NCBI RefSeq assembly: GCF_014280875.1
Contig: NZ_JACLAL010000002.1
Coordinates: 1 to 64,000 of the forward strand
Direction of reading: 5' to 3'
DNA: 64,000 nt
DNA from: Paenirhizobium daejeonense
Lineage (GTDB): Bacteria; Pseudomonadota; Alphaproteobacteria; Rhizobiales; Rhizobiaceae
Every line of letters starts with the position of its first letter. Within the stretch, counting starts at the first letter, position 1. Below the pieces are notes generated by a model that saw only the letters and a list, made by a program, of their open reading frames with translations, did no database searches and was not told where the DNA came from. Positions 57,548 through 63,601 of the stretch are shown here, one piece after another. The position numbers were made by a program, and so were the translations under genes.

Positions 57548-58179
57548 CAGAATTCGACCCCGATCTGAGCCTTGATACCCGAACGGAAGGGATGTTTGAC
57601 CAGTTCCATCTCCGTCACGAGGTCGGCGATCTCGATCAGTTCATCCTTGGCGTTACGGCCGGTCAAAACGACATGGGTCATTTCCGGCTTCTCGGTCTTC
57701 AGGAACTCCACAACCTCGGCGATATCGATGTAGTCGTAGCGGATGGCGATGTTGATCTCGTCCAGCAGCACCATGGAATAGGAGGGGTCGCGGATCAGTT
57801 CCTTCGCCTTTTCCCAGGCGGCTTGTGCCATGGCGATGTCGCGCGCCTTGTCCTGCGTTTCCCAGGTGAAACCCTCGCCCATGGTGTGGAATTCGCACAG
57901 ATCGCTGAAATGCCTGAGGATCAGGTCGCGTTCGCCGGTCGACATGGCTCCCTTGATGAACTGCACCACCGCACATTTCTTTCCATGCGCGATATGGCGG
58001 AAGATCATGCCGAAGGCTGCCGACGACTTGCCCTTGCCCTTGCCTGTATGGACGATGACAAGGCCCTTCTCGCCCGTCTTGGTGGCCATGATCTTCTCAC
58101 GGGCCGCCTTCTTCTTCGCCATTTTCTCGGCGTGGCGGGCGAGATCGGCGGGCGACGAACCCTCAACTTCCTCGGTCAT
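57547..58179 (-). CDS. cobO: Cob(I)yrinic acid a,c-diamide adenosyltransferase
   Basis: A 210-residue CobA/CobO/BtuR-type ATP:corrinoid adenosyltransferase. The P-loop VHTGKGKGKSSAAFG is at about residues 43-57, with AVVQFIKGAMSTGE, MGEGFTWETQD and MVLLDEINIAIRYDYI. It adds the upper adenosyl ligand after cobalt reduction. ATG at 58179 overlaps the cobN stop by 4 bp (ATGA); longer upstream frame lies within cobN. Confidence 0.96.
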   Translation of the reverse strand: MTEEVEGSSPADLARHAEKMAKKKAAREKIMATKTGEKGLVIVHTGKGKGKSSAAFGMIFRHIAHGKKCAVVQFIKGAMSTGERDLILRHFSDLCEFHTMGEGFTWETQDKARDIAMAQAAWEKAKELIRDPSYSMVLLDEINIAIRYDYIDIAEVVEFLKTEKPEMTHVVLTGRNAKDELIEIADLVTEMELVKHPFRSGIKAQIGVEF

Positions 58180-61100
58180 GGTTCCTGTACTCCATTCATG
58201 GTTTCGGCTCCGCGCTCGGCGAGCCGGGAAAGATCGAACATCGCCGAATTGCTGCGCGGCGTCCACAACCTGCGATCGATCGCCTCGATCAATCGTTCGG
58301 CCAGTTCCCTGAGTGCCGGCGCATTCTTCTCGGCCATGAAGTCGCGGACGCGTTCATCCATGATGAAGGCCTGATAGACCGCCTCGAAATGATGGTCGCG
58401 CACCGCGCCCGTGGTCGCGGCAAAGGCGAACATGTAATCGACCGTCGCAGTGATCTCGAAGGCCCCCTTGTAACCATGCCGCATCACACCGTCGATCCAT
58501 TTCGGATTGACGACGCGGGCGCGCACCACGCGGCCGATCTCTTCCTCAAGGCTGCGGATTACCGGTTTTTCCGGTCGCGAATGGTCGTTGTGATAGACGG
58601 TCGGACGACTGCCCGCGACATGCTCGATCGCCGCCGTCATGCCACCCTCGAACTGGTAATAGTCGTCGCTGTCCAACAAGTCGTGTTCGCGGTTATCCTG
58701 GTTCTGCACGACCGCCTGTACCCGGCGAAGCCGCTCTTCGAACAGGCCGCGCTCCGCCTTACCTTCCACATCGGCCCCATAGGCATAGCCGCCCCAGACC
58801 AGATAGGCCTCGGCCAGGTCGCCGCGCTGCTCCCAGCCCTTCTCGTCGATCAGTGCTTGCAGCCCCGCACCATAGGCACCGGGTTTCGAACCGAATACCC
58901 GGTAACCGGCCCGACGCGCCGCAGCCTTGTCGTCCAGTCCTTCGGCAACGAGCTGCGCCGTCTCAGCCCTCACCCGCGCCGCAATCGGATTGTCGCCTTC
59001 GTCTTCATCCAGTGCGGCAACGGCTCGAACAGCCTTGTCGAACAGGGCGATCTGCTCGGGGAAGGCATCACGGAAGAAGCCGGAAATCCTGAACGTCACG
59101 TCCACACGCGGCCGACCGAGAATTGCCGGCGGCATGATCTCGTAGCCGGTGACGCGCCTTGAGGCCATGTCCCAGAGCGGCTTCACGCCGATCAGCGCAA
59201 GCGCCTGCGCGATATCGTCTCCACCTGTACGCATGTTGGACGTTCCCCAGGCTGTCAGCCCGAAGGAAGTGGGCCATTCGCCATGGTCCTGCACGTAACG
59301 CGCAATCAGCAATTCCGCCGACTTCTTGCCAAGCTCATAGGCCGCGGGGGTCGGAACCGCGCGGCTGTCGACCGAATAGAAGTTGCGGCCCGTCGGCAGA
59401 ACATCCGGCCGCCCGCGCGTCGGCGCACCGGACGGGCCGGGCGGCACGAAGCGTCCATCGAGCCCGGTCAACAGTCCCTCGATCTCGGCCCTGCCCGACT
59501 TGACCACAGCAGGCTGCAGCCGGTTTTGAATTTCGTCGAGCACCGCCCGCGTCCGCGACCATTCCGGCGGGCATTCGAGCTCTCCTGCCACCAGCTTAGC
59601 CGCCAGCAACTCGATCCGCTCGACGGCATCGCCCTTCGTCCGCCATGGCTGGTCGGTGAGATCCGCCAGAATGTCCGGTCTTGCTCCCATCCATGGATCG
59701 GACATCACGCAGTCGAGTGGGTCGAAACCATTGGGTATACCGCTATTGACGGCACTCGCGACGTCACCCCCCTCTGGCCTGCCGGCCATCTCCCCCTCAA
59801 GGGGGGAGATCGAGGAGGAAAGCGCTCGACCATCCTTCCGGTCGGAGTCAATGGAAACCTGGCCGCCAGATATCCCGAATGGCGGTGCTTCATCCGAAGC
59901 GAGCGACCGCAGTTTATCGATCTCCCCCCCTGAGGGGGAGATGGCCGGCAGGCCAGAGGGGGGTAGACCGCCACGCGACGCCATCAACCCAGCATCAAGC
60001 GCAATCGCCCGCTGCAGGCTCTGGTCACCCCCCTCGCCCAGCCCGCGCGGCACCCGCGCCAGCGCCACGGTCAGGTCGGTGAGCAAACGTCCCTCCGGCG
60101 CAAGGCCGAAGATATGCAAGCCGTCGCGGATCTGCATTTCCTTGAGGTCACAGAGATAGGCGTCGAGTTTTTCCAGCGCGGCCTCCTCGGCCTCGCCCTT
60201 CGCAATGCCGGCGTCCTGATCGAGCCCTATATCGGCGACGAGATCGAGGATCTGTTTCTTCAGGAGCTTCAACCGTCGCGGATCGCCGCCCGAGGCCTCG
60301 TAATACTCGTCGACCAGCGCCTCTAGGTCCTTGAGCGGCCCATAGCTCTCCGCCCGCGTCAGCGGCGGCGTCAGATGGTCGATGATGACGGCCGAGGTCC
60401 GCCGCTTGGCCTGCGTGCCCTCGCCGGGATCGTTGACGATGAACGGATAGAGATGCGGCAAGGCCCCGAACACCGCCTCGGGATAGCAGTTTTCCGAAAG
60501 CGCCAGCGCCTTGCCCGGCAGCCATTCGAGATTGCCGTGCTTGCCCATGTGGACGACGGCGTGGGCATCGAACGCTCGGCGCAGATAGGCATAGAAAGCG
60601 AGATAGCCGTGCGGCGGCACGAGATCGGGAGAGTGGTAGGTTTCCTTCGGATCGATATTGTAGCCACGCGCCGGCTGGATACCCACCAGCACGTTCCCGA
60701 AGCGCGACAGCGGCAGCGCGAAACGCCCTTCGAGGAAGAACGGATCGGCCTCCGGCGCACCCCAGCGTGCCGTCACCTCATCCCGAACCTTTACCGGAAG
60801 ATCTTCGAAGAAACGAATGTAATCATTTACTGAAATGGCTTCGCGGATTTCCCGCCCATCGTTCGCTGCATTGGTCGGCCCCGCCCTCAGATGCGCCATC
60901 AGCGCATCGCCATCGCGAGGCAGATCACCCACTTTGTATCCAGCCGCCTTCATGGCCTTGAGCACCTCCATGGTGCCGGCCGGCGTATCGAGCCCGACGC
61001 CATTGCCAAGCCGTCCGTCCCGGTTCGGATAGTTCGCCATCACGATCGCAACCCGCCGCTCCGCGGCTTTAGTGTTGCGCAACCGCGCCCAGTTCGCGGC

Positions 61101-62483
61101 AAGTTTCGCGACGAAGGCGGCGCGGCCGGCATCCGGCTCATGGGTGACGATATTGGTCTCGACCCGGGCATCGAAGCGCGCCGCTGCCTTGAAGGAAACC
61201 GCGCGCGTCATCACCCGGCCATCGACCTCCGGCAGGGCCACGCTCATGGCAAGATCGCGCGCCGAAAGCCCCTGCAAGGATTGCTCCCACGCATCGCGTG
61301 ACGAGCTGGAAAACAGCGTCTGAAGCACCACCGCGCCTGCCTCGTCCAGCACGGTGGAGGCGCGCTCGCTGCCTGGAGCCGAGACCGCAAATCCTGTGGC
61401 GTTCAGCACGACGGCAGGCGACGCCTCTCCGAAGATCCGTCTGAGCGTATCAACCGAAACGGCATCCTTGAGGCTGGAGACGAACACCGGCAAGGCCGTC
61501 AGCCCCTCGGCGCGAAGCGCCTCTATCATCGCCTCGACCGGCCGCGTCTCTCCGCTCTGGACGAGAGCGCGGTAGAAGCAGATGGCGGCGATGGGTACGG
61601 TTACACGTTCAGTTGCGGCACCCCCCTCTGGCCTGCCGGCCATCTCCCCCTCAAGGGGGGAGATCGGATGGGGCGGCCTTTCCGCTCCAACTTCCGCGGG
61701 AGAAGTTGCGTCACCGAAAGCCGACGATGCGGCAGCGGCTGAGGTCGCAGATGCCTGCCGCGAGTCGATCTCCCCCCTTGAGGGGGAGATGTCCGGCAGG
61801 ACAGAGGGGGGTATCTCCGAATGCGACGCAACAGCCCCGGAATTTGTCTCCACCGGCTCCGAATGATTCGAGGCGGCTTTACGCGATGGAGAATGAACGC
61901 CCGCAGCTTCCCGCCATTCCTCGACCCCGATCACACCCCTGCCCGGCCACCAGACCCCGGCCTTCAGCAAGGGCGAAGCCGGCTGTGGTCTTTCGCCAAA
62001 GCCAATGAGAGACATGGCATAGTCGACAAAGGCGGACGCATTCGCCGCGCCCCCCTCAACCAGATAGGACCAGAGCGTATCGAGATCGTCGGCCGCTACG
62101 GTCGAGAACGCAGAGAGCCCCGCATCCGGCTTGTCGTCGCCTGGCAGAACAGCGATTGCGGCTCCCGACCGGCGGGCGCAGGCATTGAGCGCCTCCAACG
62201 CGTAGTGAAAATAGCTAGCCCCTCCGAGCGCCCGGATGACGATCAGCTTCGCATGCCGCGCGGTCCGCTCGACATAGGTATCGACCGACATCGGATGCTT
62301 CAGCTGCATCAGGCTGGCCAGCCGCACGCTCGGACCGCCCGCCCGCGCTGCAACGGCGGTCGCGATTGCGGCAAGCTCGGTATCGGCGGCGGACAGGAAA
62401 AGGATATCGCCCGGCGTCTGGCCGAGGTCTATCGCCTCCTCGCCGTCGCTGATCGAACCTTTCTGGGCTAGCAGGAGATGCAT
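58176..62483 (-). CDS. cobN: Cobaltochelatase large subunit CobN with two in-frame palindromic insertions
   Basis: A 1435-residue large subunit of the ATP-dependent CobNST chelatase, which inserts cobalt into hydrogenobyrinic a,c-diamide. Core family regions are intact: ANYPNRDGRLGNGVGLDTPAGT, GNVLVGIQPARGYNIDP, HMGKHGNLEWLPGKALALS and TAWGTSNMRTGGDDIAQAL. The usual length is about 1270. The excess lies in two Ser/Pro/Gly-rich segments, about residues 200-292 and 830-915, each bounded by peptides from the palindromic repeat (ISPLEGEMAGRPEGG and PPSGLPAISPSGGEID). No stop or frameshift is present, so both inserts are translated. The ATG at 62483 has TAGGA upstream. cobS and cobT are not in the window. 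Confidence 0.96.
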   Translation of the reverse strand: MHLLLAQKGSISDGEEAIDLGQTPGDILFLSAADTELAAIATAVAARAGGPSVRLASLMQLKHPMSVDTYVERTARHAKLIVIRALGGASYFHYALEALNACARRSGAAIAVLPGDDKPDAGLSAFSTVAADDLDTLWSYLVEGGAANASAFVDYAMSLIGFGERPQPASPLLKAGVWWPGRGVIGVEEWREAAGVHSPSRKAASNHSEPVETNSGAVASHSEIPPSVLPDISPSRGEIDSRQASATSAAAASSAFGDATSPAEVGAERPPHPISPLEGEMAGRPEGGAATERVTVPIAAICFYRALVQSGETRPVEAMIEALRAEGLTALPVFVSSLKDAVSVDTLRRIFGEASPAVVLNATGFAVSAPGSERASTVLDEAGAVVLQTLFSSSSRDAWEQSLQGLSARDLAMSVALPEVDGRVMTRAVSFKAAARFDARVETNIVTHEPDAGRAAFVAKLAANWARLRNTKAAERRVAIVMANYPNRDGRLGNGVGLDTPAGTMEVLKAMKAAGYKVGDLPRDGDALMAHLRAGPTNAANDGREIREAISVNDYIRFFEDLPVKVRDEVTARWGAPEADPFFLEGRFALPLSRFGNVLVGIQPARGYNIDPKETYHSPDLVPPHGYLAFYAYLRRAFDAHAVVHMGKHGNLEWLPGKALALSENCYPEAVFGALPHLYPFIVNDPGEGTQAKRRTSAVIIDHLTPPLTRAESYGPLKDLEALVDEYYEASGGDPRRLKLLKKQILDLVADIGLDQDAGIAKGEAEEAALEKLDAYLCDLKEMQIRDGLHIFGLAPEGRLLTDLTVALARVPRGLGEGGDQSLQRAIALDAGLMASRGGLPPSGLPAISPSGGEIDKLRSLASDEAPPFGISGGQVSIDSDRKDGRALSSSISPLEGEMAGRPEGGDVASAVNSGIPNGFDPLDCVMSDPWMGARPDILADLTDQPWRTKGDAVERIELLAAKLVAGELECPPEWSRTRAVLDEIQNRLQPAVVKSGRAEIEGLLTGLDGRFVPPGPSGAPTRGRPDVLPTGRNFYSVDSRAVPTPAAYELGKKSAELLIARYVQDHGEWPTSFGLTAWGTSNMRTGGDDIAQALALIGVKPLWDMASRRVTGYEIMPPAILGRPRVDVTFRISGFFRDAFPEQIALFDKAVRAVAALDEDEGDNPIAARVRAETAQLVAEGLDDKAAARRAGYRVFGSKPGAYGAGLQALIDEKGWEQRGDLAEAYLVWGGYAYGADVEGKAERGLFEERLRRVQAVVQNQDNREHDLLDSDDYYQFEGGMTAAIEHVAGSRPTVYHNDHSRPEKPVIRSLEEEIGRVVRARVVNPKWIDGVMRHGYKGAFEITATVDYMFAFAATTGAVRDHHFEAVYQAFIMDERVRDFMAEKNAPALRELAERLIEAIDRRLWTPRSNSAMFDLSRLAERGAETMNGVQEP
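59766..59965. repeat. Composite palindromic insertion B in cobN: inverted 46-bp units around 107 bp
   Basis: Unit A (59766-59811) starts ACCCCCCTCTGGCC and ends GGGGGGAGATC. Unit B (59919-59965) is its inverted copy with one mismatch in 46. Each unit holds two stems: GGCC-TGCC-GGCC type and ATCTCCCCC/GGGGGGAGAT. The 107 bp between are unlike the centre of the other insertion. In CobN this encodes about residues 840-906. Confidence 0.95.
61620..61813. repeat. Composite palindromic insertion A in cobN: inverted 46-bp units around 101 bp
   Basis: Unit C (61620-61665) is identical over 46 bases to unit A of the other insertion. Unit D (61767-61813) is inverted and differs at two positions that pair with each other in the first stem (TGTCC/GGACA in place of TGGCC/GGCCA). 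In CobN this encodes about residues 224-288. Beyond units B and D the outer flank shares GCGACGC after the same 9-base spacing. Confidence 0.95.
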
Positions 62484-62524
62484 CGGTATTGTCCTACGAG
62501 GGCAGCGTCATCGGCACCCAAGCC

Positions 62525-63601
62525 TTACGAAGCCGCCTTTTCGACAGCCTCTACCACGGCCGCATAATCCCACTCGTGTAGGCCGATGACCACGAGACGC
62601 GTTTCGCGCTTCTCGCTAGCCCCCCACGGACGGTCGAAGTAGGTGTCCACCCGCGAGCCGACGGCCTGGATGACGAGGCGCATCGGCTTGCCCGGAACAT
62701 CAATGAAGCCCTTGAGACGCAGCACGTCATGGGTTGCGATCACGTCCTTCAACCGCTCGACGAAATCGGCCGGATCGGCAATTGCTGGAAGCTTCATCAC
62801 AAAGCTTTCGAATTCGTCATGGTCGTGATGATGGTCATGGGCTTCGCCGCTTGCATGCAGCGCCTCATGTTCCAGTTCGTGATGAGACTTGCGGTTCTCG
62901 ATGTCGTCTTCGGTGCCTGCGCCGAGACCGAGCAGCACGATAGCCGGCACATCGCCGTTCTTCGCCTCGATCAGGGTCGGCTTGCGCGCGATCCGCTCGG
63001 CTACTTCCGCACGCACCCGGGCCACGCCCTCGCCGTCCAGAAGATCGGTCTTGTTGAGCACGATCAGGTCGGCGCAGGTGAGCTGGTCCTCGAACAGTTC
63101 CTCGATGGGGCTGTCGTGGTCGAGGCTGTCGTCGGCCTCGCGCATGGCGTCCACGCGGTCGTGATCGTCAGCGAAACGGCCGGCGGCGACGGCCGCGCTG
63201 TCGACCACCGTCACCACGCCGTCGACGGTTACCCGCGTGCGGATATCCGGCCAGTTGAAGGCGGCGACCAGCGGCTGCGGCAGGGCAAGGCCGGACGTCT
63301 CAATGACAATGTGGTCGGGCTTCACGTCGCGCTCGAGAAGCTTCTGCATGGTCGGAACGAAATCGTCGGCGACCGTGCAGCAGATGCAGCCATTGGTCAG
63401 TTCGATGATATCGTCCTCGGTGCAGTTCTCCGCGCCGCAGCCCTTCAGCACATCGCCATCGACGCCGAGATCGCCGAATTCGTTGATGATCAGCGCGATC
63501 TTCTTGCCGCCTGCATTCATCAGCATGTTGCGGATGATGGTGGTCTTGCCGGCGCCAAGAAAGCCGGTGATGACGGTTGCGGGGATCTTTTCCTGGAGCA
63601 T
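62525..63601 (-). CDS. cobW: CobW GTPase, cobalt metallochaperone family
   Basis: A 358-residue G3E GTPase. The P-loop TGFLGAGKTT is at residues 12-21, the metal-binding GCICC at 71-75, and NKTD-type LNKTDLL near residue 185. A His-rich stretch (HDHHHDHDEF, about 256-265) precedes the C-terminal CobW_C domain. It is proposed to deliver cobalt to the CobNST chelatase. It lies 41 bp upstream of cobN in the same transcript. Confidence 0.95.
   Translation of the reverse strand: MLQEKIPATVITGFLGAGKTTIIRNMLMNAGGKKIALIINEFGDLGVDGDVLKGCGAENCTEDDIIELTNGCICCTVADDFVPTMQKLLERDVKPDHIVIETSGLALPQPLVAAFNWPDIRTRVTVDGVVTVVDSAAVAAGRFADDHDRVDAMREADDSLDHDSPIEELFEDQLTCADLIVLNKTDLLDGEGVARVRAEVAERIARKPTLIEAKNGDVPAIVLLGLGAGTEDDIENRKSHHELEHEALHASGEAHDHHHDHDEFESFVMKLPAIADPADFVERLKDVIATHDVLRLKGFIDVPGKPMRLVIQAVGSRVDTYFDRPWGASEKRETRLVVIGLHEWDYAAVVEAVEKAAS

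Follow-up and report, generated by a model that had tools for sequence, protein, structure and literature searches.

The window analysed here, a stretch of 64,000 nucleotides from Paenirhizobium daejeonense, belongs to a 5.13-Mb genome assembled in 22 contigs (G000) and contains, at 58176..62483 on the reverse strand, the open reading frame of cobN, a cobaltochelatase subunit of 1435 aa. Its product matches the Pfam profile CobN-Mg_chel at 1282.5 bits in a profile search and also aligns with the solved CobN chain 9uk9_A; the best-ranked named relative of this protein comes from Ciceribacter sichuanensis S101 (L001). The frame stays open through two inserts with the same layout, a palindromic unit, a centre and the unit again in inverted orientation. 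Pair 1, at cobN site B (59766-59964, 199 bp), consists of a left unit on the forward strand (59766..59812, outer end 59766), a centre of 105 bp (59813..59917), of which the first and last ~22 bp are a degenerate inner extension and the remainder a variable core, and an inverted right unit (59918..59964, reverse strand, outer end 59964). Pair 2, at site A (61620-61812, 193 bp), is made of a left unit (61620..61666, forward strand), a centre of 99 bp (61667..61765) that clusters with orthologous inserts of equal length in other species of the clade, and an inverted right unit (61766..61812, reverse strand). The arms of both pairs are 47-48 nt long and 96-98% complementary, with a spacing of 103 nt in pair 1 and 99 nt in pair 2; with the unit taken as 47 nt, the spacing is 105 and 99 nt. 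The first-pass annotation had already recognised unit, centre and inverted unit twice in cobN, and this arrangement is confirmed, with slightly different dimensions from the 200 and 194 bp, and 101-107 bp between units, that it gave. It was also correct that the two centres are unlike each other, as no similarity was found between them on either strand (z 0.2 and -0.3). Both inserts fold with a stability far beyond chance expectation (RNA folding z = -12.9 for pair 1 and -11.0 for pair 2, with 0 of 200 shuffles as stable in each case), and an Rfam search of 59000-62600 gave no match.

The anatomy of the element can be read directly. The 47-bp unit, whose consensus starts with ACCCCCCTCTG and ends with GGGGGGAGATCG, forms two hairpins, one with a small stem and one with a nine-base stem, ATCTCCCCC/GGGGGAGAT, that is nearly invariant among units. 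Changes in the small stem are compensated (in 190 units, pair 12-21 is TA 76 times, CG 74 times and GC 36 times), and the two arms of one element have an equal small-stem type in 31 of 60 cases, against 17.3 expected. Inward from the unit, a degenerate stretch of ~22 bp is common to both arms in a comparison of 55 centres, each of at least 70 bp and taken one per core cluster; this extension belongs to the element, and from inward base 23 onward these centres have nothing clear in common. The possibility of distinct left and right element ends was abandoned because a two-class arm model gave no polarity (24 of 63 elements mixed, against 20.6 expected).

Outward from the unit, the first base is A (0.76 bits in 151 independent flanks outside CobN) and each position past it carries at most 0.13 bits in the same flanks; viewed in fixed register, the outward flanks hold nothing past that one base. 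The motif GCGACGC lies 10 bases past the right-hand end of both pairs in the window (59975..59981 and 61823..61829, forward strand). Mononucleotide shuffles give such a seven-base run in register a P of 0.0046 in this flank comparison alone and 0.022 when all six are counted. Allowing up to one mismatch, it is found at offsets 8-12 in 19 places among 389 outward flanks, which are partly orthologous, compared with 2 flanks at offsets 28-32, and GACGC, picked post hoc from the window, has 13 occurrences near the unit (offsets 0-25) and two further away (50-75) in 180 independent flanks. Since this excess is modest and outward information is low, the motif is likely a weak outer sequence context rather than a firm element end. 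The earlier suggestion that the element extends past 46 bp, made from a GCGACGC placed 9 bases out, is thus weakly supported as regards sequence context and does not extend to a firm outer limit. Direct repeats of 5-9 bp flanking the pairs were found at none of the offsets tested in 102 flank pairs. In the same set, repeats of 2 and 3 bp at the unit boundary number 10 and 0 (11.4 and 1.0 expected), and one base further out those of 2, 3 and 4 bp number 10, 3 and 1 (4.6, 0.8 and 0.1 expected). Duplication of a TA target at the ends of the unit was discarded as an explanation, since it would shift the frame in the CobN inserts.

The element is dispersed. A search with the unit pattern that allowed two mismatches at most gave 21 matches in the window's own genome and 145 in a relative, G034, and a backward control pattern gave none in either. 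The search for paired units about 100 bp apart that had been proposed from the window yielded seven pairs of the same layout and similar spacing in the own genome and another at C16:79420-79613; a single unit is present at 8 of the loci read. Among 53 neighbouring units less than 300 bp apart in G034, 45 are outward-facing, 4 are ++, 4 are -- and 0 face inward, and 15 units in 51 loci, picked from match lists, are solo or otherwise placed. Across all the loci then gathered, neighbours within 300 bp are arranged +- 141 times, -+ 10 times, ++ 4 times and -- once. One G034 locus (L151, G034:C18:65836-66335) has four direct units repeating every 114 bp and then one inverted unit, so that unit and spacer form a tandem array. 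The element is also found immediately upstream of cobN in L003, L011, L014, L021, L031, L090 and L091. Two copies outside cobN were compared with relatives at loci too diverged for an exact insertion point: at the L113 locus both relatives have other sequence in the gap, and at the L116 locus no unit was called in either, although G001 has there an apparent remnant of one element end. The empty site of R. leguminosarum L072 could be original or the result of a deletion between G runs.

Comparison with the solved protein places the two inserts in linkers. Residues 1-187, 199-743 and 742-1249 of 9uk9_A (1263 aa) align with residues 1-187, 296-833 and 915-1422 of the CobN in the window, which leaves 108 residues at site A, against 11 in 9uk9_A, and 81 at site B, against none. 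Because the solved CobN and the CobN relatives with short linkers lack the centres, these are not native CobN sequence. Our CobN set had 110 rows, 97 of them distinct and 90 spanning both sites. Segments of at least 60 aa are present at site A in 49 and at site B in 75 of these 90 proteins, at both sites in 42, at one or both in 82 and at neither in 8, and they comprise several repeat families, judged by peptide motifs under labels of our own. An inverted repeat that exceeds those of all 20 shuffles is found in 40 of the 49 segments at site A and 65 of the 75 at site B. In a scan of alignment columns filled in less than 35% of rows, the sole further internal inserts that reach 12 aa are those of L064 (55 aa, residue ~543) and L090 (18 aa, residue ~145), the latter taken as a misalignment; inserts at the very start of CobN rows come from reading the frame back past the start codon. 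The two linkers are thus recurrent targets of palindromic repeats. The L064 insert, a third internal position, is the single clear case among the 90 distinct CobNs. In L095 (G022), site B holds a 204-aa segment of two similar tandem elements with 105-bp centres, a duplicated insert within the gene, and in L094 (G013) cobN is split into two reading frames just past the start of site B, where an insert may have broken the gene.

Among close relatives, the presence and absence of whole inserts is observed directly. Pair 2 is present in G151 (L236) at the identical place, with the same length and orientation and a centre 0.78 identical to that of the window; G001 (L098) keeps at site A only part of the unit matching 61620-61666, in frame and without centre or second unit; and G019 (L086) has other sequence where pair 2 sits. 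At site B, one other insert is found in G151 and another in G001 and G019 instead of pair 1, between gene flanks of 250-300 bases that are 87-96% identical to those of the window, which suggests that close relatives swap element for element in one codon neighbourhood. Whole inserts are thus gained and lost among close relatives. The description of a paired-palindrome module with a variable middle, already offered in the first-pass annotation, is therefore borne out both by its occurrence in many places and by its behaviour as a whole in CobN. In its upstream part (61813-61922), site A of the window has ~36 more residues before pair 2 that are absent from the solved CobN; the matching region of L011 and L082 shows peptide motifs from a different repeat family, so pair 2 may lie within what is left of an older insert.

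Why the centres differ was addressed by measuring divergence in six sets of orthologous CobN inserts, of 3 to 15 rows each. Centres were grouped in BLAST clusters with consistent strand; single-linkage clustering by alignment z-score, which joined 68 of 89 centres, was dropped because at z > 5 several false links were estimated over 3916 comparisons on two strands. The mean difference between orthologous inserts is directly seen to rise from the units (0.007-0.070) to the 22-bp extensions (0.095-0.245) and the cores (0.175-0.372), in sets where CobN itself differs by 0.208-0.364 at third codon positions and by 0.037-0.099 at first and second positions. Cores thus change, unevenly, at 0.57 to 1.24 times the rate of third codon positions, and units far more slowly. 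Because units are nearly frozen while cores diverge at such rates, drift after copying is the best explanation for the differing centres, and old copies would end up with unrelated cores between similar units, as in the window. The strongest competitor of this reading is a capture device whose ends move as a pair and enclose fresh DNA at each event, the centres being cargo. Such a device is consistent with the 55 centres having no common sequence past ~22 bp inward, and with the 34 of 44 G034 cores that match no other sampled core at z > 6, which drift accounts for only if most copies are old. However, cores diverge gradually between orthologues, the other 10 of the 44 G034 cores fall into groups with a common core, and in the window's own genome L111, L116 and L118 have a common centre (z 5.7-6.2), while the centre of L113, read on the opposite strand, resembles that of pair 2 (z 5.3). 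We consider capture unlikely. Of the earlier proposal of a module able to carry variable DNA, the variable middle stands, and fresh cargo becomes unnecessary given gradual core divergence and the cores that are common to several copies.

Drift is accompanied by inversion. Opposite orientations of the site A centre are observed between sisters: identity is 0.61 on the same strand and 0.86 on the opposite strand for L002/L003, and 0.61 and 0.89 for L084/L095, with orthologous flanks, a core distance of 0.11 in each pair and CobN third-position differences of 0.179 and 0.178. The centre is thus inverted in place in these two clean pairs, and less cleanly in others, such as L011/L014 (0.61 same strand, 0.76 opposite; orthologous flanks) and L009/L071 (0.61 and 0.74; the left flank alone matches), with the caveat that draft assemblies, of which there are many, could in single cases misorient a short loop enclosed by inverted repeats. 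An inversion between L035 and L036, first suggested by clustering, was dropped because identity is 0.60 on both strands. Parsimony on a CobN tree that omits the insert regions requires at least four orientation changes over nine rows at site A in the window clade, three over seven at site A in the R. leguminosarum group and one over six at site B in that group. At site B, no inversion was seen among the 15 rows of cluster CL0 or the 7 of CL2, and there was none among the 12 rows that make up five orthologous groups of copies upstream of cobN. Exchange may be a further source of variation, as core distances in the R. leguminosarum group depart from the gene tree and the site A cores of L014 and L094 differ by 0.07, against 0.270 at their CobN third positions. 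Transfer of the insert between the L014 and L094 lineages is thus conceivable, and since both observations make lineage exchange possible, such exchange can import the opposite orientation in this group. The likely route of inversion in place would be recombination between the two 47-bp ends, or template switching from one to the other.

The inserts obey a reading-frame rule that is directly observed. All 69 distinct CobN pairs, which represent 18 core clusters and remain after removal of both-strand duplicates, have a length of 1 mod 3 (71 of 71 rows before removal; L092 and L097 repeat L037 and L021), compared with 5 of 23 rows outside CobN, where one row, L097, repeats L021. The centre is free of stops in the reading frame in 69 of 69 CobN elements, the other two sense frames being open in fractions of 0.58 and 0.29, although the CobN rows were found as long open frames, which biases them toward open centres and partly exposes the length rule to the same bias. 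Because the pair length plus two bases makes whole codons, an element that runs T...A, two bases longer than the pair and inserted without duplication, fits the rule, and other accounts are possible. The inserts would be translated, and very probably, as part of the overall explanation given below, each copy adds ~65 residues to the predicted CobN.

When the inserts are turned round in place computationally, the frame stays open in 50 of 69. This includes all 31 cobN members of CL1, CL2 and CL3, the clusters with site A inversion, in contrast to CL0, never seen inverted, where 3 of 15 are open and 12 of 15 are stopped. This contrast is what raises the idea that the units act as inversion sites in living populations, with the site A centre flipping back and forth. 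We hold this to be a long shot; if true, cells of one strain would make two versions of CobN with different linkers, and stops would be purged from both orientations wherever flipping continues.

As to what moves the element, its ends would be recognised by an enzyme acting in trans. The first-pass annotation had named a RAYT-like transposase as the candidate, that is, a REP-like module mobilised by a Y1 tyrosine transposase. The paired inverted palindromes agree with this idea, and so does the lack of a clear target duplication, since none is expected of Y1 elements. However, the search for a RAYT gene that had been proposed along with it gave no match to PF01797 (Y1_Tnp) in the window's own genome in a profile search, and the profile is absent from 33 of 35 same-genus genomes tested (39 were fetched first and four incomplete ones left out) and from 88 of 101 genomes of a family sample. 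It is present in the remaining 2 and 13, and the control was positive in 5 of 14 control genomes, E. coli included. Genomes rich in copies are among those that lack it: G034, with its 145 unit matches, and also G033, G021 and G022, which have 118, 106 and 100 BLAST matches to the L113 stretch. Mobilisation by a RAYT is thus very improbable, because the Y1 family is missing both here and in G034; it is possible that a transposase was lost after spreading the copies. Since neither a mobilising gene nor a clear target duplication was found, we infer the movement of the element from its distribution only.

An equally poor prospect is that the inserts are kept for a job, as a structured mRNA or regulatory hairpin in cobN or as a useful extension of the protein. 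Their very stable folds, the compensated stem changes and the fact that 82 of 90 CobNs have a long segment at one site at least would agree with such a role; but the same units are found at many places outside cobN, the family of the site B insert differs among close relatives, and 8 of the 90 CobNs have neither long segment, all of which suggests that the inserts are tolerated rather than used. That each palindrome inserted alone around a centre of native CobN sequence, the outcome named beforehand as fatal to a paired module, has a negligible chance of being right: single units do exist (the 15 solo or otherwise placed in G034 and the 8 single loci of the own genome), but the centre is missing from the solved CobN and from those with short linkers, G001 has neither the centre nor the second unit and retains an in-frame remnant of the first, and neighbouring units in G034 face outward in 45 of 53 cases and never inward.

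We therefore favour, with considerable confidence, the explanation that each insert in the window is a complete copy, of ~195 bp, of a dispersed double-palindrome repeat of the Rhizobiaceae, that the CobN linkers are re-entered in frame, and that the core drifts and inverts. The element would be non-autonomous, made of the 47-bp unit, ~22 bp of degenerate extension and a core of no fixed sequence, followed by the same parts in mirror order. Copies would spread over the genome, and two short linkers of CobN would tolerate and repeatedly receive this and other palindromic families in frame. After insertion, the units would stay almost constant while the core drifts and at times inverts between its inverted ends, and it is because units stay while cores drift or invert that two copies in cobN could have a similar frame of repeats and different centres. 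If so, the two linkers of this B12 enzyme are a natural experiment in protein tolerance, having repeatedly gained, swapped, flipped and lost palindromic repeats. The case also separates two traits of small repeats that are easily confounded, the conservation of the ends and the relatedness of the middles; it suggests that, by way of its palindromic ends, a coding segment can be turned round on the time scale over which species diverge; and it makes RAYTs an improbable mover of the repeat found in the CobN inserts.

Among known systems, the natural home of the element, by description, would be the rhizobial RIME and A/B/C repeats (PMC2573895, PMC2873474, as far as the available portions of these sources go). 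These palindromic motifs (Osteras et al. 1995) are described as having a conserved secondary structure, dozens of copies per rhizobial genome, an intergenic location and no assigned function (PMC2573895). In-frame insertion and inversion, both seen in the CobN element, are absent from the descriptions of RIME and A/B/C in the available part of that source. The GTAG and CGTC REPs, which are associated with RAYT/TIRYT transposases, also have palindromic units, dimers and some intragenic copies, according to the portion available (PMC3733652). The CobN element resembles them in these three features, and differs in its longer two-hairpin unit, in the high copy number reached in a genome without a Y1 transposase and in its ends, where the GTAG/CGTC tag, as defined in the accessible part of PMC3733652, is missing from the consensus. 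The reverse complement of the outer GCGACGC does contain CGTC, ~11 bases from the unit and away from the unit end. The Correia repeat enclosed elements of Neisseria, as far as they are covered in the accessible text (PMC10969869), are small, have inverted ends and are reported to invert. Unlike in these elements, compared here by description, the inverting segment of the CobN element lies within a reading frame. The element also resembles a MITE of a DDE transposon, being short (193 and 199 bp), having long terminal inverted repeats that are 96-98% complementary and containing no transposase gene; among the G034 loci listed, no autonomous parent with these ends was noticed. Intragenic invertons were reportedly recognised as a class by Chanin et al. 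in 2024. As in these, a segment bounded by inverted repeats lies within a gene and is found in both orientations at one place (L002/L003, L084/L095), but the CobN orientations are observed here between species.

In-frame palindromic inserts, inversion of small elements and intragenic inversion are thus each already known, and their combination with two landing sites is apparently new, insofar as neither palindromic inserts in frame in CobN nor that combination is described in the literature searched, which was largely short of full texts. The closest functional parallel is with the Rickettsia palindromic element (RPE), of ~150 bp and found in frame within genes of conserved proteins, according to the accessible portions of its descriptions (PMC2229807, PMC10969869). 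Like the RPE so described, the CobN element sits in frame and open in a conserved gene (69 of 69 pairs 1 mod 3 and 69 of 69 open, as predicted from sequence). RPEs, in the descriptions available, enter many different genes, whereas here several repeat families have gone time after time into two linkers of a single enzyme, and the centre of the element inverts. The element may thus be best regarded as a rhizobial palindromic repeat that works like the RPEs and has, in addition, an invertible centre, a likeness drawn from descriptions.
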